Of a stretch of DNA of 64,000 bases, positions 30,065-62,450 are shown piece by piece. The notes beneath the pieces are model-generated. The model was not told where the DNA came from. It did no database searches and saw only the letters and a list, made by a program, of their open reading frames with translations. Origin of the DNA: Halichondria panicea (Eukaryota; Porifera; Demospongiae; Suberitida; Halichondriidae); assembly GCF_963675165.1 (NCBI RefSeq), contig NC_087383.1:3874979-3938978 (forward strand). Direction: 5' to 3'. How positions within the stretch are numbered: the first letter of the stretch is position 1; each line of letters begins with the position of its first letter. Both the position numbers and the translations under genes were made by a program.

Positions 30065-32316
30065 CTACTGCTCTCTGCTAGGGATCTTCTCCCGAACATA
30101 CACTTGACAGCGCCCACGAGACACTCCGACACTATTTGCACTCACACGTGCGCCCTGTGATGGGGGGAAAACGATATTTAGACTGGCCAGACCCGAGGCA
30201 CTGCTACGAGTACGTGGCACACCCAATAGACTATGAATTAGTTCCAATCGAAACCCTTTCAAAGGCATGGCCTTTGAACCCACCCTGACACAGTTGTGCC
30301 TGTATAGAATGTATGCATTATTCACACTAACGTCAAGGAATTGAAAGAAAATCCTGAACCAATACCGCCGACACTTTCTATCGTACCCATAGGTTTTCCT
30401 CATACGCCCTGTATTGTCAACTCCTCCCATGTACATGTTATATGCAGGGAGACAGGGGGGGACACTCTGAGAGCGTAGGGTACCGTCTTTGTGCATTCGC
30501 ATTACAGTGTAGGGCATACGGTCAGGGAACACATTTGTTGCAAAGGACACAACTCTACGGTCGTTAAACATAGAGTAAGAAATATCACCAACAGTCATGG
30601 ACGTATAGTCACCTTTGTCGAGTACCACATCCTTAAGACTTGCTGGGAAACCAGCAGCATTCTTCAAAATTGTGCCGACAGTAAACACATTTTGCTTAGC
30701 CAACTCTTCTATCAATGGACCGGACGTGTAAAAGTTGTCCATGTACACAACATGCTGATGACAATAAAAAGGAGTGAGTAAACGATGGACTACATTTTTC
30801 ACAAGCCCTTTCACAGCTATCTTTTTCCCAGAGGAATCGGTGAGCTTACTTACCACTGTATACATCAAACACACAGAGATACCCACAGCATGAACATGAG
30901 CAGCACCATACCTTGAACCCCAGTTTAACAGGCTTCTTGGGCATATGAATTTTCCCGCTTTTACGACCCTTGTACTTTATCATCATCTCATCAACGGAAA
31001 GCTCCTGACTGGGATTATACCTCATGAAGTAGTTGGCTTTAAGAGTCTCTAAAACAGTTTTTAGCTTGCTAGTTACCTTACGTGCATCAGTGATGGACGT
31101 ATTGTCCTCACAGTGCAGATACCGCCATAAACTTTGGAACCTTTTGAGAGACATTACATTGCTCACAGATTGTACACCTAAAAGGGGATCCTTGGACCAG
31201 TAGTCCGTAATTTCAGGGAGCCTATGAATGCCCATCTCTAGTACAATCCCCAAAAACACCCACAATTCGGCACTGTTTGTAGCTGACCAACCCTTAGCAC
31301 CACACTGCCTAGCGTACAGGTTGGTCTGTTCGGCTATGTACTCACACAAACTATCGGGCCAAAGTAACTTAACAAAATCTAGGCATGGAGTTACAGACGG
31401 ATCAAGTTGATCGACAGGACCGACCACACCGCTAAAGACGGGGTATCTTCCTGTGGATTTAGCTTTTTGGAGTCCATTGTCCCTCGCCAGCTTCCTCCGT
31501 TTGGGAGTCGGAGCCATGCCATCGACCATTTTGTCATCATCCTCCACTGCAGCAGCTGCACGGAAACAAAAGTATGAATATCATTAGAGTACCACAAGAG
31601 TGCTCGCCAGTGCAGGTGGGGGACAGGCTATGAATGTCATTACGTGGGCGTACCGCACGCGTGTGGTGCTATGAATATCATTAACTACTGGGGGGTTAGG
31701 GCACATAGGTACAGTACAGCAGAGGAAAAGGCTCGTCCACATCAAAGGCTTGTGGGAGGAGCCCAACAAACCACAACAACCATGAATGTCATTACGTGGG
31801 CGTACCTCACACGCGTGTGGTGCTATGAATATCATTAACTACTGGGGGGGGGGTTAGGGCACATACGTACAGTACGGCAGAGGAAAAGGCTCGTCCACAT
31901 CAAAGGCTCGTGGGAGGAGCCCAACAAACCACAACAACCATGAATATCAATATGTGGGCGTAACGCACGCGTGTGGTGCTATGAATATCATTAACAACTG
32001 GGGGTTAGGGTACAGTACAGTACTGCACTCAAGGCGACGCCAAAAAGAGGCTCACACAATGTGGGAGGAGCCACAAAAGGCATGCACACGACGCCTCTGC
32101 CAAAAAGAGGCCACATATCGTTAGGGCATCACAATGCTGCCTCCCCAACCACTATTTAATGGTGCAATGACACAAACCTGAATCACTCTCCAGATCTGTC
32201 TCAAAATCGTCATCACTGGGCTCGTCATGGTCATAACAGACTCCCTGGTCGTCCTCAAGCTCTCTGACAGTGTGCTCAAGCTCGCTGACAGTGTCAAGGA
32301 GTCCAATCAGCTCCAT
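30065..32316 (-). pseudogene. piggyBac-type DDE transposase (two exons), frameshifted
   Basis: Exon 1 is 32316-32178: ATG, then an acidic Glu/Asp-rich start. The donor at 32177 joins in frame to exon 2 from 31555. The catalytic aspartates of the piggyBac fold can be seen in SVDEMMIKYKGR, VVYMDNFYTS and GGVDNTGRMR. Near 30850 the frame shifts (SGK then stop; the other frame continues SKLTDSSGKK), so one base seems lost. The stop at 30065-30067 interrupts the C-terminal Cys/His region: the same frame goes on with ACPHCLIRICKGH, which looks like the rest of the cysteine-rich domain. The intron holds a tandem repeat. Cut-and-paste transposition at TTAA is the family's activity; I could not identify TTAA-flanked ends here. 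The copy is very probably inactive. Confidence 0.8.
31633..32020. repeat. Tandem repeat, about 150-bp unit, 2.5 copies
   Basis: Units starting ATGAATGTCATTACGTGGGC at 31633, 31782 and (ATGAATATCAATATGTGGGC) 31940 share ACGCGTGTGGTGCTATGAAT, GGAAAAGGCTCGTCCACATC and CCCAACAAACCACAACAACC. The third unit diverges after its first 60 bases. The array lies within the intron of the transposase gene. Confidence 0.85.
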
Positions 32317-34032: not shown

Positions 34033-35953
34033 GCAGGCTGTGGTGAAAACAGGGAATGAGAAAGGAGGAAATGAGAAATGAGGAAATGAGGAAATAAGAA
34101 ATAGAAAATGAAATAATTTATGGTTACGATCATCACCATGGCATTAATTTTCATACACAATAATTATGACATTGTTATAATAATATAATAGATGCACAAG
34201 GGTATTTAGTACGTATTTAGTTATCAGAGTTCATTGAGGTCGACGTGGTGCACTGTCTTGGTTGGATTCCCAGTTTGATCGTACCCTCCCATTAGGTACA
34301 GGGTATTTCCTATGAGAGTCAAATATAATTATAAGTAGCATCGAGAAGTTTCATGTATATAGGCACTTCCACACAATACAGGTTGTCAGACACATCGTAG
34401 GAATTATCGCTTCAGATGGCACACTGAGCTTTCTTTGATTGTAGCATCAGCCTTCACTATAGGCATTGCTTGTGAGAATGGTAATGGGAATTGCTTTCTT
34501 CACCCTGTAGCGGGATTGGATATGATACCAGTACAGTGTACTAATGTCATTACTTCCTGCATGCAGCTTTACAACAGGACTGGCAGATTAGAAATTGCTT
34601 GGTTTGACAAACAGTTTTGGAAGTTTCTTTGCTGTTGCTTACATGTAGATGTTGACATTGAGTCCAGTCCATTGACTATCACTTGCCCACCGGATTGTGA
34701 AATCGGTGAATGTATTGTCAGTATAGCCATGCACGCATAGGTAAATTGTTTGGGACTGTGGGACTGTAGGACAGTACATGTAGGTACCGTTACGTAGGTA
34801 GATATGATGTCTGAACCATGCCAGTCGTACATGGCACACACTAGCCTAGCCTCGATTCCAGGCCGCTTGAAAAAGGCGGCCTGGTATACCTTGTATGCGC
34901 ATGCGTGTACATTACCCCAAAAAGGGGGTAATCCGTGTATTTGTGGATACTGTCAGTAAAATAAACCGTATACTATTTGCATTCTGATTTTACAGTCCGT
35001 TACATAGAAGTATTGTGCAAAGATGACTGAGTTCTTACGCCCTTTATTGTATCAAGCCAAGTCTCTACTTAACGACACCCTACACTGTAAGGCTACAGAT
35101 GTTATAGGAAAGGCATGATGTGTTCCTGTGGGTCCCCTGATGAGGCTGTGGTAATATAGACCAGGCAAGTGTTCTGCTACTAAATCTTGCCTTTATGTTC
35201 GACAAGAAGTCATTGCTGAAGATAAAGAAGCTAATGATTACTCCTGAAAGCTTTTAATAAGCTTTAACTCGACACTCAGGAAGTTATTCACTCAAGATCT
35301 ACTGATGTATTAAAGAGTCCACCATTCTTCCTAGCTGGCAGCTCTAGCTGTCTGGGAGGTTTTCTTGAACTGTCTCTTTGATAAACAGAGCTAGAAGAAG
35401 CAACACTGCTGCAGCATAATTATTTTACTTTGATTAGTGTCTCTGAAAGCTGCCATTGTGGTCACATTGTCATACGTATTATTCCCTTTTGTAACTTTGT
35501 TCGTTTTTTACAATTTGTATGATGAAATTGTTGTCAATTATTTCGTGCATGCGCATACAAGGTATACCAGGCCGCCTTTTTCAAGCGGCCTGGAATCGAG
35601 GCTAACACTAGCCTCGGTCCCAGGCCGATTTTTTTTAATAGAACGAAGTTGTTCAATTGGAGACGGATCGGCCTGGGATCAAGGCTAGGCACACACTGAA
35701 GTAGATAATAGAGGTAGAGAGTGTCACACCGTGTACCAGCTGACAGAGGAACACATGCATAAGTTAGTACGCCTGTATGGATATGGTGCGATGGCAGAGC
35801 ACCAGGAGGTACCTGTTAGTGTATCTCAGTAGATGTTAGCTTCGTCTTCAGACTTGCTCTGCCCATAGATACTATCTATATGCTCCTCATTAATTTTCTT
35901 CATTTCCTCATTTCGTCATTTCTCATTCCCTGTTTTATCACCACCCAGGCAGG
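34033..35953. mobile_element. 1.9-kb inverted-repeat element with 5-bp direct repeats, carrying a kelch fragment
   Basis: Left end (34038) CTGTGGTGAAAACAGGGAAT and right end (to 35948) ATTCCCTGTTTTATCACCAC are inverse, continuing inward as GGAAATGAG/CTCATTTCC repeats. GCAGG flanks both sides (34033-34037 and 35949-35953). Inside are a kelch-like coding fragment, two inverse copies of a CGATTCCAGGCCGC foldback (34850-34910 and 35545-35602), another foldback at 35608-35690, and no transposase. Confidence 0.65.
34216..34312 (-). pseudogene. Kelch-repeat exon fragment
   Basis: On the minus strand an open stretch reads LIGNTLYLMGGYDQTGNP and then TKTVHHVDLNEL before a stop. A hydrophobic-hydrophobic-GG pair followed by a conserved Tyr and downstream aromatic or basic positions is the kelch beta-propeller blade signature. 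Only one blade is visible and no neighbouring blades follow, so it is a fragment, either the last exon of a lost gene or sequence captured by the surrounding element. Confidence 0.5.
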
Positions 35954-36114
35954 CGCTTAGTCCCGTATTTTATTTTATTGAACTATGACAAAGAACAGAA
36001 AAAGGAGAGGCTGCGAAGGAGGCTAGTAAATACACACGATCCTTGCCAGAACGCAATAAATTTTCTGCTGATTTGGCTCATTTGCAAAGGTTTTTCACCA
36101 GCAAAATATTCTAG

Positions 36115-37452
36115 TAATACCAGGGATACAAAAGAAAGGGGATTGGAAACGAAATTTTTGAGAAATTTTTGCGTGAAGCATTCCGCGTTATAGGGCGTGG
36201 CTAAAACTACAAAGGATTATATTTATAGTCAGCATGCTCATTACCTGTCTTGACTCCTCTACAATGTGTTGTACCATAGATAAAAGAGAGAAATGGATAG
36301 GAAACACTTAGCGCCTCGAAAACTATCCGCGTTTCCCCCGGGATTCATTCGAGGCCGCCAACTGTACATGGAAAAAAATGGCCAAAAACACAAAAAAGAG
36401 ACAAATGATTGTCTTACTGTCAGTGTGAGAACCCTGCTGCTGAACTTTTACTTCTGTTTAATACTTGAGGCTATATGACATACAGTGCACTACTTATTTA
36501 GTTTGTTCTAGCTGTATTATAGGTGTTATTGGTACAAGAAACATCCTAAGTAGTGAAAGCAATGTTTCTGTACCTCTAGCTACTTCTTAGCAATCCCAAA
36601 AAAGTTTCTGTTAGTTCCAAATGATACCTAGTACAAAGGGGCATTAAATTGAAGTGGTATGGAGACTTGGAAAGGTCTGGATTTTTCAAAACAGCCATAG
36701 AAGTAGTTTTCCTGGGGGTTTGGGAGCGAAACACGGCTGTATCACGCTCAGTGTATGTATTTTATATGCAGCTTATGGGATCACGTGATCCGTTTCCTAT
36801 CCATTTCTCTCTTTTATCTATGGTTGTACATAGAAACAGTGAAATTGTTAATGTTGAAAAGTAAAGAGGATTTAGCTCTAAAACAATGAAAAAGTCCACT
36901 AAGCCACGCAGCCACTATCACTAGACAAATAAATGCTATACAAGAAGGAATAGCCCTTACTATGAAGTCGTGGGAGGGACAGGCCTGTGGTGTGTCTAAA
37001 AGTATACTAAAGCAGTTTAAAGGACTATACTGCAAACGTTTATGAACAGTACAGCTCATCTATAGCATGAAACCATCCTATATAGCACTTAGATACATAA
37101 TAACCAAGTCAAGCAATGTCCTTTGCTGTTTTGACTTCACAGGAGGGGCAGAGAAAACTTGACATAGAGTAATTTAAGCTAAACTCAACAAAAATTGGAA
37201 ACAGAGTAAAGACAACGGACTTAGAGCTTGTCAGTGGTATAAGCTTACTTTTCTTGAGTACCTCCCAGCCCCTGAGTGATCGCTAGTGGATAGGAGAGCT
37301 AGAAACAGTTGAAATACAACCAGAGTACGGTCAAAACAAAAATAATCGCGAGTGCGAAATCATAACGCGGAGTGCTTCACCGGATGTCAGTCCTTTTACA
37401 CAGGGCGTGGGCGGTCGTTTCCAATCCCCTTTCTTTTGTATCCCTGGTAATA
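36115..37452. mobile_element. 1.33-kb element with CCAGGGATAC inverted ends and TAATA duplication
   Basis: The left end (36120) CCAGGGATACAAAAGAAAGG and its continuation GGATTGGAAACGA are matched exactly by the inverse right end to 37447. TAATA flanks both ends (36115-36119, 37448-37452). The body has no ORF above about 70 codons. It contains a second element (36274-36823). Confidence 0.85.
36269..36828. mobile_element. Nested 550-bp element with CCATAGATA inverted ends and TTGTA duplication
   Basis: The 32-base ends CCATAGATAAAAGAGAGAAA..GGATAGGAAAC (36274-36305) and their exact inverse (36792-36823) are flanked by TTGTA at 36269-36273 and 36824-36828. No coding capacity. The ends resemble those of the element at 60528-61765. 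Confidence 0.85.
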
Positions 37453-38014
37453 CGGTATGGCATATTGCATCACTACCATAGCAACCATATATTGCATGGC
37501 ACTATAATTATATAGCATAATTATAATGCAGTGCAATATAATTATGGCATGTTGCGCTGTGTGTAAATGCAGTAGATCAGTGAAATCTGCTTTTACCGCT
37601 CGTTAGTTTGGAACCATCCTTTCCTTTTTCCTGAATCCGCCACTGACAGATGTGTCTCTTTCTTTCTGCAGCTATACTGTTTGTAGGCGTTTCACATCTC
37701 AATTTCACATCTCAAACTCCCTCGTTCCAAGGCTGTATTGCAGACCCTTGCTAGCCTTTCTCTTCGCGTTCCAGTAAACCGCATTGAATTTACACCATCA
37801 TTATGTCATGCTATTGACCAAGTTAACTACGTGCATGTGCTGTTGAAAGTGTCTACATTATCAGAAAGAACATATATAATTACTAGAATGTTCGTACATT
37901 ATACACATGCACATGCATGCATGTCCACACAATGTGCCAATTCCAATTCATCTGTATACGCTTTTTTATTTCTATAATTATGGTAGTCTCAAGAATAACT
38001 GAAAAGTAAATTAA
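37453..38014. other. Intergenic sequence between transposon nest and NLR gene 1
   Basis: AT-rich, with no supported gene. On the minus strand an AATAAA hexamer (37965-37970, read as TTTATT here) lies about 45 bases after the stop of NLR gene 1 and may be its polyadenylation signal. Confidence 0.45.
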
Positions 38015-41000
38015 TCATGCATCCGTAAAAATCTCAGGTAATCCATTTCTCTTCCTCTTATTGTTAGCGTCCCTGAATATTGTCTTGGTACAAAATCTTA
38101 GGCTGCCGGGTATGTACAATCGTGTAAGTTCAGAGCTGTGGGTGGTTAGATGTCTGGCAAGTATCTTCATTCCATCTTCTGTTATTGAGTCATTACCCAA
38201 TATGCTCAGTGTTTTAATCTTGTTGATCAGTCCAGTTGATAGCTCCTCGATCCTTTGATTAGTCAGTTTACAGAAACCCAAGTACAGTGTTCTCAGAGTC
38301 TTATTGACTGCAAGTCCAGCAGCAATGTAACGACAGCTAGTCACTGTGTTATAAGACAAATCAAGATGCTCGAGGGAATTGTTCGTATTAAAAAGTTGAT
38401 AGAGGGTAGCTCCATTGTTGTCAGATATTTTTAGTGAGCAACTGCTCAGGTCCAGTCTCTTTAATGATGTGTTAGTTGACAAGGCCTCACAGATATTGTT
38501 TAGCTCAGTGTTACCAATAATATTGCCTGACGACAAATTAAGGCTTTCAAGAGTAGTGTTTGTACTCAGTAGTCGAGGGATTGCTCCGTGATCGTTGAGA
38601 GATAGTGAGCAGCTGGAGAGATTGAGGCTCTTTAATGATGTGTTAGTTGACAAGGCTTGACAGAGTGTGCTAAGTCCACTGTTGCCAATGGCATTAGCAG
38701 ACAAAATCAATGTAGATATTGAAGTAGTGTTCTCGATCATTTCAGCGATATGGCGTATCCCATTATCACGAATCTCATTATTAAAAAGATTAAGACTGAT
38801 CTTAGAGTGAGAGTGTAGACACTTGGAGAGTCCTCGGGCCAATAATTTGCTGCCTTGATCACCAATAGAGCAACTATCAAGGCTAAGTGCGCATCCAATA
38901 CTGGTGTTGGAACAAACTGATGCTGATACGAAATATCCAACAGATAGACAGTCAATAGGATTCATTGTAGTGAAATCAAAGTTTAGAGAGTGATTAAGAA
39001 GATTAGCCACAAACACATACAGTGACGAGTCTTCAACTTCGTACAAACAGTTGATGAGAGACAACAAAAGGATTTTTGGCTCACTATACTTCTTTTCTTT
39101 CTCACTTTTGGCAACCTTTCTGACCAGATCAAAAACAGTAGCTGGAACTGGACACAAGAATCGAGGTAGCAAGCTAAGGATTGGTCTACTAGTTCTCAGT
39201 TTGGTGATACCAGCATAAAACTGGAAGACTGCACTGAATCGAGGATTACCAAACAGCTTCTGGAAGACAGAAATCTGTTGCTTGGGAGACATGAGAGATA
39301 TGTGGATTGCTGCTAGTAGCTCTTGAATAGACAAGTGGAGAAAGCAGTAGTAAACCAGATGACCATCGCTAATGATACTGGAAACAGTTTGTAATAATCC
39401 AATGTTAGAAATTTCCTTCGTAATGTGAAGAGCGGCCAAATCACTGTCAGTAAATGTCGCTTTGTTTTCTTCAATCCCATGATATGCAAGTTGATACATT
39501 TGTACGGAAGATGTTCTGATTTCTGTGGGCAGTGAGTCTGGAGATGTGATGTCTCCCACTGGAGTGGTCTTCCCTAACTTATCCTGGAGGTATCTCTTGA
39601 GAGTGCTCTGGACAACAGATGTGAATATCCCGTGGTTGGATGTGGGGAGTGAATAGTTATAAGAAAGGAAGCAATTAACGACAATGGAAGCATTGAGGGG
39701 GAGGTAGCAGCTTCCTTCTACCACTGGGTTCTCTCGAATTCTCTCCAGTAGAGTCTGCACAGCTTGTGAGTCACCTTTCAGACACTCAGTGAAGTACTGC
39801 TCTAGTTCATGTGGAGTAAACCCCAGCACCTCCACCCTAGACGAGACTAGTGGGTGGAGCTCAGCCGAAGATGACGGTCGAGATGTTACGATCATAGCGC
39901 AATCATGTAGAACTTCTTTTTGTGACATGTTTGGTCGGATTAGTTTGTTGATGATCGAGTCTCTAGGGAGGTCAGAAGGAAGCTCGTCCCATCCGTCCAG
40001 CACCCACAGTACACCTTTGCCATACAGTGATTTTATTACTGCCTCTGTCACATTAGCCACGGCCGTATCGATGCAGGGAAGTATGTCAGCAATTGTCTTT
40101 GCTTCTCTAACAAGGGGATCTCTCAGTCTCACGAGGATTGCAATATCAAACTCTTGGAATAGTTTCCCCTTTGCCCACTCCTGACAGATGTGTAGAGCAA
40201 GGGTGCTCTTGCCAGAGCCGGGAGCTCCTTCAATCAAAACAAAGTTTCTTCTATCTCTAATCTCAGAGAAAATGTTCGTCAAGTTAACCGGAGTTTTTTG
40301 AAGTAAAATATCGTCGATTTTTCCTGTGATTGTTAAATTAACAAATTCATAATCGATTCTACCTCTCTGTATTTCTTCCTTCTGAATCATGGCCAGTTTG
40401 AACATTTTGTTTGTTGGGACGGGAGGCCATTGTGTGGCTGATGTGGATACTTGTGCTCTGTAGCGACTTTTTAGGTAGTTCCTGTACGAAGAGAGCTTGT
40501 GGTTTAGCAGGACCCTTTCTCGAGAAGGGGGACACGAGGTGGTGGAGTCTGCATGGGGAAACAAATCAATAGGTGAGTGCCATTCCTATAGTGATATATA
40601 GATAGAAAAGTGTGCGTGTGTAAAAATATAGGATTAGCTGAGTTGAAGAGTGAAGAGTTCCTTATTTGGTTGCAATCATTTCCAAACATATTATGGTATC
40701 ACAATGACTAAACGTAGTCTCGCGGACCCAGACCCTGAAAGAGGGTCTGGCCAATTTCACCGTACAGAGTTGTGATGACCGCGCCACAAATATCGTGGCG
40801 GATAAGTGTTTGTAGTAAGTTATGAAACCGCACAGCTGCACCGCTAGATTTGGCAAATCTAATTATGTGCATGGTTTCACACATCTGTCCTCCAACCACT
40901 AACCACTTATCAATGCAGCTAATGTGTAATTTGCCAGACGATACTATATCGGCTGGTCCACGAGACTAGGCCAAACGTATATGGTATCACAATGACCACA

Positions 41001-49911: not shown

Positions 49912-52900
49912 TTAGAATGCATCAATCTGAGTCAGTCCATTTCTCTTCCTCTCTTCGTTAGCGTCCCTGAATACAGTCTCGATACAGGATCTTAGGGGAT
50001 AGGATACCACCAATAGTGTCAGTTCAGAGCTGTGGGTGGTTAGATGTCTGGCAAGTATCTTCATTCCATCTTCTGTTATTGAGTAATTACCCATAATGTT
50101 CAGTGTTTCTGTATTGCTGATCAGTCCAGTTGATAGCTCCTCGATACTCTGATCAGTCAGTTTACAGTAACCCAAGTGCAATGTTCTCAGAGTCTTATTG
50201 ACTGCAAGTCCAGCAGCAATGTGACTACAGCTAGTCACTGTGTTATAAGACAAATCAAGATGTTCAAGGGAATTGTTTGTATTCAAAAGTTGATAGAGGG
50301 CAGCTCCATTGTCATCTGATACTGTTAGTGAGCATCTGCCCAGGTCCAGGCTTTTTAATGATGTATTAGTTGACAAGGCCTCACAGATATTCTTCAGTTC
50401 AGTGTTACCAATAACATTGTTTGACAAGTTGAGGATTTCAAGAGTAGTGTTTGTGTTCAGTAGCCGAGGGATTGCTCCGTGATCGTTGAGAGATAGGAAG
50501 CACTTGGAGAAATCGAGAGTCTTTACTGATGTATTAGTTGATAAGGCCTCGCAGAGTGTGCTAAGGCCACTGTTGCCAATGGCATTAATAGACAAAATCA
50601 ATGTAAATATTGAACTAGTGTTCTCGATCACCTCAGCGATGTGGTGTATCCCTTCTTCATGAATATCATTATTGCTAAGGTCAAAATTAATCTCGGAGTG
50701 AGAGTGTAAACACTTGGAGAGTCCTCGGGCCAGAAATTTGCAGCCTTGGTCACCAATAGAGCAACTGGTGAGGTTCAGTGTGAATCCATTACTGGTGTTG
50801 GAACAAACTGATACGAAATATCCAACAGAAAGGCAGTCAATAGGATTCATTGTAGTGAAATAAAGATCTAGATTGTGATTAAGAAGATTAGCCACAAACA
50901 CACACAGTGATGAGTCTTCAGCTTCGTACAAACAATTGACGAGGGACAACAAAAGGATCTTCGACTCATACTCTTTCTCTTTCTCATTTTTAACAACTTT
51001 TCTGACAAGATCAAAAACAGTAGCTGGAACTGGACACAAGAATTGAGGTAGCAAACTGAGGATTGGTCTACTAGTTCTTAGTTTGGTGATACCAGCATAA
51101 AACTGGAAGACTGCATTGAACCGAGGAGTACCAAACAGCTTCTGGAAGACAGAGATTTGTTGCTTGGGAGACATGAGAGAGATGTGGATTGCTGCTAGTA
51201 GCTCTTGAATAGACAGGTGAAGAAAGCAGTAGTAAACCAGATGACAATCGCTAATGATACTGGGAACAGTTTGTAATAATCCAATGTTTGAAATTTCCTT
51301 CGTAATGCGAAGAGCGGCCAAATCTCTGTCAGTAAATGTTGCTTTGTTTTTTTCAATCCCATGATATGCAAGTTGACAAATTTGTACGGACTGTGTTCTG
51401 ATTTCTGGGGGCAGTGAGTCTGGGGATGTGATGTCTCCCACTGGAGTGGTCTTCCCCAACCTATCCTGGAGGTATCTCTTGAGAGAGCTCTGGACAACTG
51501 ATGTGAATATCCCGTGGTTGGATGTGGGGAGTGAGTGGTTATCAGAAAGGAAGCAATTAACGACAATGGAAGCATTGAGGGGGAGGTAGCAGCTACCTTC
51601 TACCACTGGGTTCTCTCGAATTCTCTCCAGTAGAGTCTGCACAGCTTGTGAGTCACCTTTCAGACACTCGGTGAAATACTGTTCTAGTTTATGTGGTGTG
51701 AACCCCAACACCTCCACCCTGGACGATACTAGTGGGTGGAGCTCAGCCGAAGATGACGGTCGAGATGTTACAATCACAGCTGATTCGTGTAGCGGACTTT
51801 CTCGTGACATTTCTGGTCGAATTAGTTTGTTGATGATTGAGTCTCTAGGGAGGTCAGAAGGAAGCTCGTCCCATCCGTCTAGCACCCACAGTACACCTTT
51901 GCCATACAGTGATTTTATTATTTGCTCTGTCTGATTTGCCATGGCCGTATCGATGCAGGGAAGTATGTCAGCAATTGTCTTTGCTTCTGTAACAAGTGGA
52001 TCTCTCAGTCTCACGAGGATTGCAATATCGAACTCTTGGAACAGTTTCCCCTTTGCCCACTCCTGACAGATGTGTAGAGCAAGGGTGCTCTTGCCAGAGC
52101 CGGGAGCTCCTTCAATCAACACAAAGTTCTGTCTATTTCCAATCTCAGAGAAGATATTCATTAAGTCAATTGGAGTTTTTTGAAGCAAAATATCGTCAAT
52201 TTTTCCTGTGATTGTTAGTTTAACAAATTCATCGTCGATTCTTCCTCTCTGTATTTTCTCCTTCTGAATCATGGCCAGTTTGAAGACTTTGTTTGTTGGG
52301 GCAGGAGGCCATTGTGTGGCTGATGTGGATACTCGTGCTCTGTAGCGACTTTGTAGGTAGTCCCTGTACGAGGACAGCTTGTGGTTCAGCAGGACCCTCT
52401 CTTGGGAGGGGGGACACGAGGTGGTGGAGTCTGCATGGGGGAAACAAAACAATAGGTCAGTACCATTCCTGGTGATAGTTAATAGAGAATGATATGTGTA
52501 ACAATAGCAATTAAGTTAAAATCACTCCCACAACGTATGGTACCACAATAACCACACTCTCACATGACAGACTCACACTTGTCAGACAAGTACTTGCACA
52601 CTCGAACAGCAACGTCTTCTTTGAGCAGGGAGAGTATGATGAGTAGCAGAGCTTGGAAAGTGGCGTCTAGTCCGTTGGTCAGTATCCAGAATTTCAAAGC
52701 CAGCAACATTCCTGCCAGAGTGCCATCTACATATGCTCTAGTCCTCACGTCAGTTTGTTCTCCAGGTAAGAGCTCCAGTTTTTCAAGATAGCCTTTGTGA
52801 ACATTGTCGAAACATGCTGCTAACTCGGGTAGATCTGGTTCTTGTATTGCTGTATTGAGCTGCTCATCAGTCAGTTTCATTTTTGTCTTCAGATCGTCAA

Positions 52901-59010: not shown

Positions 59011-59371
59011 TTAGCATAATATATTCATTGACAATTCACAGCAGTGCATTTGAGCATTGAATTATTTATATCATCTGCATGTACTATTGACACGTTGATT
59101 ATTCTTCATGTATATACTATTGATATTCTTATTGACGACCTAATGTTCTAACATACTATGGTACTTTGCTACTTTTCTCCTAAATTGTCATTGAAGATAA
59201 TTATGATATAATTTTCAAAAAGTAATTTAAAATCATGATCGACCATTGAATGCATTTAGTAGTAACAAACAACATTAGATGTACGCACAACAATATCATA
59301 ACAATAATAATATTATAACAACAATTAATTATATAAACAACACCAAACTCGAATGAATAATTAATCTCAGG

Positions 59372-60522
59372 TAGTCTATTTCTCTTCCTCTCTTCGTTAG
59401 CGTCCCTGAATACTGTCTCGATACAGGACTCTAGGTGGTCGGGTATCCACAATAGTGTCAGTTCAGAGCAGTGGGTGGTTAGATGTCTGGCAAGCGTCTT
59501 CATTCCATCTTCTGTTATTGAGTCATTACCATTAATGTACAGTGTTTCAATCTTGTTGATCAGTCCAGTTGATAGCTCCTCGATACTCTGATCAGTCAGT
59601 TTACAGTAATCCAAGTCCAATGTTCTCAGAGTCTTATTGACTGCAAGTCCAGCAGCAATGTGACGACAGCTAGTCACTGTGTTACCAGACAAATTAAGAT
59701 GTTCGAGGGAATTGTTTGTATTCAGAAGTTGATAGAGGGCAGCTCCATTGTCGTCTGATATTGTTAGTGAGCAATTGCACAGGTACAGGCTCTTTAATGA
59801 TGGGTTAGTTGACAAGGCCTCACAGATATTCTTCAGCTCAGTGTTATCAACAACATTGTATGACAAATTGAGGTCTTTTAAGAGAAGTGTTTGTGTTCAG
59901 TAGTCGAGGGATTGCTCCGTGATCGTCGAGAGATAGTGAGCATTCAGAGAAATCGAGACTCTTTAATGATGTGTTAGTTGACTAGTCGAGTGCCGCCGCC
60001 CTCCTTGAAGGAGGTCGGGAATCAAGCCTATCCACAGTTTTGTTCTGGCCTGTTACGCAATAGTATCATGAATATCATTCATTCTATGTGGGAGCTAACC
60101 AATAGCGATGAATATCATTTATTAAAGTGAGTGTTGGCCACGCCTCTCAGTCAATCCAACGTGTGCAAAATTCACACGTGGTACAGTTGAGTGGGTGTGA
60201 TCACTCCCCTTGAGATATACTGCAATCTGATTGGAGCTGGTGGAATTGTTGGATTTCCAACAACAGAACAAAACTGTGGATAGGCTTGATTCCCGACCTC
60301 CTTCCGGGCAACGGTAGAGGGCGGCGGCGCCCGACTATTAGTTGACAAGGCCGCACAGAGTGTGCTAAGTCCACTGTTACCAATGGCATTATTAGACAAA
60401 TCCAATGCAGATATTGAACTAGTGTTCTCGATCACCTCAGCGATGTGATGTATCCCTTCTTCATGAAAATCATTATTAGAAAGATTAGATCTAGCTATAT
60501 GGAATCATACCCTCACCCAAGG
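59372..60522 (-). pseudogene. NLR copy C, leucine-rich repeat remnant
   Basis: The minus strand carries the LRR end of a third copy: LDLSNNAIGNSGLSTLCAAL (about 60400-60341), then a 355-bp transposon, then LKSLYLCNCSLTISDDNGAA and LDLDYCKLTDQSIEELSTGL to NRLPEI near 59372. The usual stop is absent and the frame runs on to 59201. There is a frameshift near 59870. Death and NACHT sequences are missing; in their place is the 1.24-kb element at 60528-61765. Exon 1 survives at 61798-61777. Confidence 0.8.
59974..60346. mobile_element. 355-bp element with TAGTCG..CGACTA ends and 9-bp duplication
   Basis: TTAGTTGAC occurs directly at both sides (59974-59982, 60338-60346) of an element starting TAGTCGAGTGCCGCCGCCCT and ending with GGGCGGCGGCGCCCGACTA. 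Long inverse ends continue through GGAGGTCGGGAATCAAGCCT and CCACAGTTTTGTTCTG. A 9-bp duplication with long ends is the pattern of Mutator-like elements (inference). Non-coding. Confidence 0.85.
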
Positions 60523-61770
60523 CCTGGCCATAGATAGTAGAGGGGAGGGATTGGAAACATTTCAGGTGACCAATGTATTGCCCTAGAGAATTCTGACACC
60601 ATGCGTGTTGCATTCCGCAAGTATTGATTGCGATTGATTGCGAGCCAGATGCAAAGACAAAAGAGAAGAAAGTGAAGAAAACTGCAGTAAGCACTGGCAG
60701 AGCTAGTCTGTATGTACATTATCCATAGTAAATGTATGGTTTACATCATTTACCTAATTTACTTGATCATCAGAGCTCCATGTTACACTGTTACATGTAT
60801 TTAGCTAAGAATTGGTAAGTAAGAAACTTTGTGGGGGATATCTTGAGCTAGGAAGTAGCCATGGTTGCTTGAGAGTGATCAGAGTGTAGAGGGAGCATTG
60901 AAATATGCAGTAGGCATAGCCAAGTTGAGCATTATGCTGTTTAATGTTGAATATTTGCTTTTAAGTGTGAAAACAAGGATTCACAAGTAACTTGTTTTGC
61001 GGGGGAGCTACTGGTTAACAATAAATTGTACATCACTATTGTTTAGTTCTACATGTTGCTTAATGATCCCGATGTGCAGTAAGAAAATATTTTCCTTGCT
61101 AACGTTTATCGTTTTGGAAATATACTAATTTAAACTTACCCATACATTTTTTCCCAGGGGTACTCAGAAAATCAGAAAATCTGCCAAGACCCTTTTGTAT
61201 GCCAACGGCAGAGGGGAGGGACACATGATAACCCCACTGTTATGTATTATGATTAGTACATTCTTTTGCAAGAGCTAAACAGTGACCGATGACGAGAATA
61301 CACCATTGCCTAAAAGGGCGTCAAGCTCATAAAAAATTATGTTTTGTGTTTGTAAACATTTTATGTAAACATCAAAATTGTGTGATTGTGTGAAAGTCAT
61401 AATGTTATGAAGCAGTCTATAATAATGAACAGTGCCTAGTACTAGTACCATAAAGTATAAATAATTATCGAGTTCCTAGATTTAATTTCTTGTAAATGCA
61501 TGCCTTGTTATTTTCAAGGTTTGTTGAGAATGTGAGAATGTGTAATCTCCACTCAAGTATTTGCAAAGAGAAAAGTGTCAGTCATTCGGATGTACAGCAG
61601 CAACCAGAGCAACTACATGTAGCTAAGTAGTTGATCAGCATCTATAATAAGCAGCTTTCCCCCAATCTCCTCCCATTGAATTAACTTCCTGTCAATTTCC
61701 GGTGCGACACGCATGGGCCGCGTGAAATCCCTGTGTTTCCAATCCCTCTCCTCTACTATCTATGGCCTGG
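60523..61770. mobile_element. 1.24-kb element with CCATAGATAGTAG ends and CCTGG duplication
   Basis: Left end (60528) CCATAGATAGTAGAGGGGAG..GGATTGGAAACA, right end to 61765 its inverse with one base fewer; CCTGG repeats at 60523-60527 and 61766-61770. No ORF of note. It sits where the Death and NACHT exons of NLR copy C should be. Confidence 0.8.
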
Positions 61771-61776
61771 CCTTAC

Positions 61777-61798: not shown

Positions 61799-62450
61799 TC
61801 CAACATCTAGACGTACGTACATATGGCCAGCCATGGGTTTACTTGCTTGGGTACCGTAAGCCCTTTACTATCTATGGTAAGACCTCGACACTTTTTAATA
61901 TTACGTTTTGCGAAAGTAGAGTTTTCAATGGTGCTATAATTTATGCGAAATGTCCAAGTGTCGCATATTTAGAGGGTCGCCTTATATAGAGGTTTTACGG
62001 TATCTTGTTTTTTGCAAGTGGGTGTATCTTGTAGGTGGGTGTGGTAAATCATGAGCCCCCATCTCTGCCCATCTCCCATTTGCTTTCCATTTGATTCTCA
62101 GCAGCACATGTCAGCAGCTGAAGGAGGATCATGGAGCGGAGGATGAAGCTCGTGCATGCACTGATCGAGCTGAAACTGTAATACTGATTTGTCCCCTGGG
62201 TAAGAATGCAGAGTACTCTGGTACATGGTGAGAATGGAACATGCATGCAGTTTCTGTATTAATTTTACATAGAGTCTATACCTGAAGGCCAGTAGAATAA
62301 GTGTTCTGAATTCAATATACTTAAATGCATGCTGTCAGCTGGATCGTTCTCTGCATGGCCCCTCAAACTTCAGAATCAGGCTCCTAGTGGGCTGTGTATG
62401 TAATCTCCTGTCTAAACTTTTGAACTGTACCATGTGCTAGATCAAAATGG
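61799..62450. other. Unit C flank
   Basis: Parallels the region upstream of the other NLR genes: GCAAGTGGGTGTATCTTGTA and GGTGTGGTAAATCATG (62014-62053) match 42902-42945, and CCTGGGTAAGAATGCAGAGT (62196-62216) matches 53274-53293. A short open segment at about 62110-62180 (QLKEDHGAEDEARAC) could be an exon remnant. The duplication becomes unrecognisable after about 62230. Confidence 0.45.

Follow-up and report, generated by a model that had tools for sequence, protein, structure and literature searches.

Three short elements with inverted ends (A, B, and C), one nested in another, lie in the 64-kb stretch of Halichondria panicea DNA analyzed here (the window) and raise the question of which class of transposon they belong to and which enzyme moves them. 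Inverted arms of 33 to 41 nt, with 95 to 100% identity, bound all three elements, as the initial annotation had described. Each arm has about 31 to 32 nt within the element, and its remainder is flanking sequence; the call of A's arm starts already with GTAATAC. The elements start with CAGGGATAC or CATAGATA, and A and C contain inner repeats of 14 to 19 nt besides their inverted ends. Features of the window, and of longer copies elsewhere in the genome, are collected in Table 1.

Table 1. Elements, duplications, motifs, and a candidate footprint in the window, with long copies from elsewhere in the genome
Feature	Position or length	Strand	Support or remarks
Left target-site duplication of A, GTAATAC	36114..36120	.	
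Element A, tip CAGGGATAC, split by B	36121..37446	.	Exact 7-bp duplication, inverted ends, paralogue
Motif GGATTGGAAAC, A left	36140..36150	+	
Left duplication of B, GTTGTAC	36268..36274	.	
Element B, 548 bp, tip CATAGATA, inside A	36275..36822	.	7-bp duplication, blastn, empty site
Motif GGATAGGAAAC, B left	36295..36305	+	
Second motif ATCCGCGTTTCCC, 50 bp from B left tip	36325..36337	+	End type adjoining ORF2 in L039
Second motif AGCCGTGTTTCGC, 84 bp from B right tip	36726..36738	-	End type upstream of L039 transposase
CACGTG, 35 bp from B right tip	36782..36787	-	
Motif GGATAGGAAAC, B right	36792..36802	-	
Right duplication of B, GTTGTAC	36823..36829	.	
Motif GGATTGGAAAC, A right	37417..37427	-	
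Right target-site duplication of A, GTAATAC	37447..37453	.	
Left duplication of C, GCCTGGC	60522..60528	.	
Element C, 1236 bp, tip CATAGATA	60529..61764	.	7-bp duplication, blastn to L026
Motif GGATTGGAAAC, C left	60548..60558	+	
Motif GGATTGGAAAC, C right	61735..61745	-	
Right duplication of C, GCCTGGC	61765..61771	.	
Candidate footprint, 14 bp of tip CATAGATAGTAAAG	61856..61883	-	Flanks alike 6/7; about 85 bp beyond C
Long copy L039	4660 bp		Duplication GTTTTAC; transposase with PF21787, PF21788, PF21789
Long copy L045	4622 bp		Duplication GTTTTAC
Long copy L046	5124 bp		Duplication GGCAAAC
Element around L048	5982 bp		Duplication ATTAAAC

The initial annotation read 5-bp duplications (TAATA, TTGTA, and CCTGG) around the elements and drew its argument about class from that length. 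The duplicated unit was instead found to be 7 bp, with the true tips one base further inward on each side, so that the outer "C" is part of the duplicated target and not of the element. The shared C/G looked like inverted repeat because all three targets in the window have G first and C seventh. Among 99 ends (the first listed of 671, all on contig C1), 19 adjacent facing pairs were taken with no filter by match, and 15 of them had an exact 7-bp duplication. When all ends were paired against all, 19 of 2,394 pairings matched, with the true pairs counted among them. Two of the 15 exact pairs (both CTTTGAC and 908 bp) may derive from a single event. The four facing pairs that did not match had 3, 7, 5, and 4 mismatches, and two of these, spanning about 7 kb, may join different elements. 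At retrieved loci, 21 of 22 pairs, from a table that lists near matches only, had an exact 7-bp repeat, none of which reached 8 bp; the remaining pair (L007) was poor. Nine of these 21 did not combine a first G with a last C. Full 7-base duplications found elsewhere, in copies whose outer bases differ from those in the window, were CTGCCAT, CCTACAT, ATTAGTC, GTTCAAA, GTTGAAG, TGTGGGC, CTTTGAC, GTTTTAT, and CTTTAGC.

Base composition of the targets at the 99 listed ends was palindromic (t1 G at 50 and t7 C at 46, t2 T at 74 and t6 A at 71, t3 T at 45 and t5 A at 50), and the preferred target is the palindrome GTTNAAC. Such a palindromic preference can disguise a 7-bp duplication as one of 5 bp. 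An unassigned class of transposon with 5-bp duplications and CCATAGATA/CCAGGGATA tips would fit all three window copies, and any copy whose target has G first and C seventh is compatible with both lengths. However, if the C/G belonged to the element, almost every one of the 99 ends would have G at t1, and the tip-adjacent base was as expected in only the 50 ends counted above; it also covaried with the host base at the far side. Seven base pairs were needed by 10 of the 15 exact pairs, in which one or both tips lacked the "C" required by the shorter reading (tips not CC), and duplications such as CTGCCAT and ATTAGTC refute that reading outright. Where ends of this kind enclose a transposase, it is P-type, as described below, and a 5-bp class has virtually no probability left. 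Other superfamilies that make duplications of about 5 bp (hAT5, Transib, and Ginger) were dropped as candidates after the 7-bp unit was recognized.

The nesting of B inside A, also proposed at the outset, was confirmed by an empty site: L043:1075-1852, a paralogue of A that lacks B, keeps a single GTTGTAC at the junction. By blastn, each of B's two ends resembled a different end of L039 (93% across 44 bp and 78% across 83 bp). Both ends of C resembled the sole available end of L026 (85% across 61 bp and 97% across 31 bp); this copy contains fragments of a transposase and of a second gene, ORF2. At L043, the left-end interiors of two copies (223-989 and 1075-1852) were similar and their tips differed (CATAGATAGAACAG versus CAGGGATACAAAAG). 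Each has a separate 7-bp duplication, so one transposon body may exchange tips, as far as these sequences indicate.

The window contains six copies of GGATWGGAAAC, one per element end, versus 0.06 occurrences expected, and none of 100 shuffles attained six. CCATAGATA also occurred six times (0.59 expected), with four of the six at element tips. A search of the genome for the end sequences, recommended in the initial annotation, was productive. Across the 131-Mb assembly, the pattern CCATAGATAN{5,25}GGATWGGAAAC, in the CCATAGATA form, gave 401 matches, and the CATAGATA form of tip plus motif gave 671 matching ends, with tip and core exact and any base but G allowed at the eighth flanking position; with the reversed control, both counts were 0. 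The initial annotation had tied its grouping to two properties, and these fared differently: 5 bp was not the duplicated unit, and the motif GGAT(T/A)GGAAAC was strongly enriched near the tips. The grouping itself holds, with the end motif common to many families and to copies that carry a transposase.

The distance from the CA tip to the motif was 18 to 20 bases in 65 of the 76 ends read at retrieved loci and larger in the others. Situated there, GGATTGGAAAC would most likely be the part of the end that the transposase recognizes. A second, ATCCGCGTTTCGC-like motif lay 49 to 51 bp inward on the ORF2 side and 84 to 98 bp inward on the transposase side of L039, L045, and L046, although in both L045 and L046 the match was weak (4 to 5 mismatches) on one of the two sides. 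With at most three mismatches, it was present in 33 of 74 ends versus about 1.4% of shuffles, the motif having been chosen by eye out of the very ends later scored. Its position, about 50 bp versus 84 to 98 bp inward, may distinguish the two ends, and both motifs are putative binding sites. CACGTG also occurred at the transposase-side end in L039, 35 bp from the tip, and in L046, 40 bp from the tip, and was not found at that of L045.

Within the 64-kb window, there was no match to a P-type transposase or to ORF2, in keeping with the initial observation that the window holds no transposase of this group. A search for long copies with a transposase, also suggested there, recovered four that have an end on either side and are flanked by exact 7-bp duplications (L039, L045, L046, and L048). 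PF21787 was present in all five transposases of an alignment (A2) that includes these four; a scan of later exons, made for L039 alone, added PF21788 and PF21789. In L048, both the transposase and ORF2 are broken into two frames, and one stop falls within the PF21787 match. The A2 profile matched the Drosophila P transposase (6p5a; E = 5.1e-9), with Asp residues opposite positions 230 and 303 of the chain, which are catalytic Asp residues of that enzyme (PMC7776569, in excerpt). The enzymes thus have the RNase H-type organization of P transposases (TNP-like RNaseH N and C, with a GTP-binding insertion), and the duplication falls in the 7- to 8-bp range of the P superfamily, at 7 bp. The group formed by A, B, and C almost certainly belongs to the P-transposase lineage, with a duplication unit of 7 bp. 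The argument about class that had been built on 5 bp was wrong, the unit being 7 bp, which fits this superfamily.

A, B, and C are ordinary nonautonomous P-like transposons. They would move by cut-and-paste, using transposases that longer relatives encode at other sites in this genome. PF21787 had 46 matches at 42 loci genome-wide, and nine long loci were read (L039 and L045 to L052, with L049 to L052 read over 5.0 to 5.5 kb); no ends were recognized at L049 to L052 within the 5.0 to 5.5 kb taken, and L047 had one end only. L020 and L039 were 99.7% identical over 1,536 bp, which suggests recent movement. A further end pair of 5,991 bp (G000:C1:7527847-7533837) had an exact CTAAGAG duplication and no PF21787 match. 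Searches beyond this genome, in IMG/VR (profiles A1 and A2) and GTDB genomes (A2), returned 43, 24, and 37 pattern-matching stretches, none of which was confirmed as a relative.

The transposons belong to the P-transposase lineage and are not canonical, THAP-bearing P elements, because an N-terminal THAP domain was not found. The transposase ORFs had no THAP match, inspection by eye of the frames in the 560 bp upstream of the L045 transposase showed none, and the closest of the 14 genomic THAP matches was 13 kb away from any P transposase. The region before the catalytic domain contains five Cys residues that are invariant in five copies; it had no Pfam name and only weak matches, including HTH. 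At the other end of the protein, the transposase stopped 65 to 72 residues past the presumed catalytic Glu in seven of eight matched loci (L047 breaks off at 30), that residue being placed by a motif within the PF21789 match and not by alignment to E531. A similar basic tail ("PLPKRKR" type) ends the protein in seven of the eight, and in these eight loci no in-line C-terminal domain followed the presumed Glu. The Drosophila P transposase has a total length of 751 residues, and with that length about 220 residues follow E531. E531 is the catalytic Glu of the Drosophila enzyme, and its C-terminal domain is described as all-helical, with a basic tail and contacts to transposon and target DNA (PMC7776569, in excerpt).

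ORF2 lay near 34 of the 42 transposase loci and was absent at eight. One ORF2 query gave 76 matches at 56 loci, of which 35 were at most 12 kb from a transposase locus; in all 35, ORF2 was downstream and on the opposite strand, so that the two genes converge. The gap between the genes was 1.2 to 2.1 kb in 31 of the 35, and the other four gaps, of 2.6 to 8.5 kb, may join different elements. The predicted protein had 299, 324, 335, and 339 amino acids in four copies. It is conserved as a protein, much like the transposase: identity at the three codon positions was 0.46/0.59/0.36 for ORF2 (fourfold sites alike at 86 of 246) and 0.50/0.63/0.37 for the transposase (241 of 738). At L051, a diverged P-like transposase had other frames downstream on the opposite strand, and a 272-amino-acid frame there did not match the ORF2 profile A1 (probability, 0.4%).

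An origin of ORF2 as a gene captured from the host, or as an antisense frame open by chance, would be in keeping with its position on the strand opposite the transposase and with the 21 of 56 ORF2 loci that have no PF21787 match within 12 kb, which are perhaps deleted copies. Such an origin is nevertheless very improbable, given that the protein is conserved at 30 to 36% identity to the L045 version with third positions near saturation, that ORF2 lies downstream of the transposase exons and not across them, and that it is linked at so many of the transposase loci. ORF2 as a separate accessory or regulatory protein (a repressor, a DNA-binding protein, or a host-interaction factor), with no relation to the P C-terminal domain, comes close to an even chance. 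It agrees with the outcome of the similarity searches: no similarity to Drosophila 6p5a was detected, nothing significant was found in Pfam or PDB, and the Pfam matches to ARID (E = 0.019) and DUF7836 (E = 0.079) were below the cutoffs of those families. A PDB match that would make ORF2 a relative of ribosomal protein uL30 (E = 0.32 and 0.9 only) was taken as chance. The accessory-protein reading accords less well with a linkage that always takes one arrangement, with conservation comparable to that of the transposase, and with a transposase that is too short past its presumed catalytic Glu to hold a domain of that kind.

Those same properties leave room for ORF2 as the detached C-terminal domain, which we regard as possible, at somewhat below an even chance. 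The proposal draws on a matching size, on a basic tail (across eight complete ends, the final 25 residues have a net charge of +3 to +10), and on how short the transposase is. Sequence comparisons speak neither for nor against this identity. The short transposase, THAP-less as found, would need the ORF2 protein, which would act in trans as a detached C-terminal DNA-binding domain. A fuller version, just as tentative, is a split P transposase whose catalytic chain lost both the THAP and the C-terminal domain, with ORF2 supplying the latter and the Cys-containing N terminus replacing THAP in the recognition of GGATTGGAAAC.

The window elements are closest in duplication and target to Galileo of Drosophila. 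Galileo makes 7-bp duplications, reported as GTAGTAC in D. buzzatii, GTANTAC in six genomes, and GTATTAC in D. willistoni (PMC2775673 and PMC4168063, both in excerpt). The 7-bp palindromic target is thus shared (GTANTAC-type there and GTTNAAC here), as are a P-type transposase and many deleted copies. Galileo differs in having long inverted repeats and a THAP domain (PMC4168063, in excerpt), whereas the elements here have inverted ends of about 31 to 32 bp with short inner repeats, no THAP found, and ORF2; long, internally repetitive inverted repeats of the Galileo type were not found in A, B, or C. With Drosophila P, the group shares an RNase H transposase with a GTP-binding insertion and internally deleted nonautonomous copies, and it may share unequal end spacing. 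The spacing is 9 versus 21 bp in the P element (PMC7776569, in excerpt), and here the motif positions differ between the ends (in L039, and in L045 and L046 weakly at one end). The P element, however, makes an 8-bp duplication and encodes a transposase of 87 kDa that unites THAP and C-terminal domains in a single chain, unlike the 7 bp, the lack of any THAP found, the lack of room for an in-line C-terminal domain, and the convergent gene seen here. Zebrafish Pdre2 has the tip CATACC (CATACCTGTCAAC), separate subterminal inverted repeats, and an 8-bp duplication (PMC10983969, in excerpt). A tip starting with CATA and separate subterminal inverted repeats are therefore common to Pdre2/THAP9 and this group, and the 8-bp duplication and THAP9-type transposase set the former apart. 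Both the 7-bp duplication and the tips are ordinary for the P superfamily, because Galileo makes 7 bp and Pdre2 starts with CATACC. A paper on a coral MITE (PMC2872659) was set aside because its subject is piggyBac.

The long relatives are a new variant of the P lineage, with two genes and no THAP found, known here from this genome alone. In the literature searched, mainly open-access papers in excerpt and thus weak evidence, no THAP-less or two-gene P element was found. The class of a large transposon group is corrected by these results. Most of what is known about P transposition comes from enzymes that consist of one chain and carry a THAP domain. If true, a THAP-less, two-gene version would reveal separable parts of the P transposition complex and offer a new handle on how P transposases recognize ends and targets.

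Candidate excision footprints are consistent with the movement proposed for these elements. Six of 23 distinct tip stubs lay between 7-bp flanks alike at at least six positions, versus 1,126 of 20,800 random sites (binomial P = 0.001, from a small sample), and excision is supported to that extent by sequence. Cleavage with a 17-nt stagger is a feature of the P superfamily; in the candidates here, the flank repeats stood 10 to 25 bp apart. A GGC-rich repeat contains one of the six (L031), and another (L010) shares its left flank with a nonqualifying stub in the window at 35864. An earlier count (9 of 16 stubs versus 784 of 9,600 random sites), which contained duplicated places, was replaced by this one. 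At 35864-35882, two tip-like stubs stand back to back (CATAGATAC TATCTATATG), with no inner motif and a best flank match of 4/7; a shorter stub at L010:2910 has a 7-bp left flank identical to that of the 35864 stub. A search of the retrieved loci for a double-stub footprint found none.

Other features of the window were observed alongside the three elements. Two overlapping reverse-strand frames at 30065-31547 matched piggyBac-type DDE_Tnp_1_7 and are likely one broken transposase gene. Minus-strand genes of one repeated kind occupy 38015-40564, 49912-52452, and 59201-59866, with transposons between or beside them; the first had NACHT and LRR matches, and the other two are similar to it by eye.
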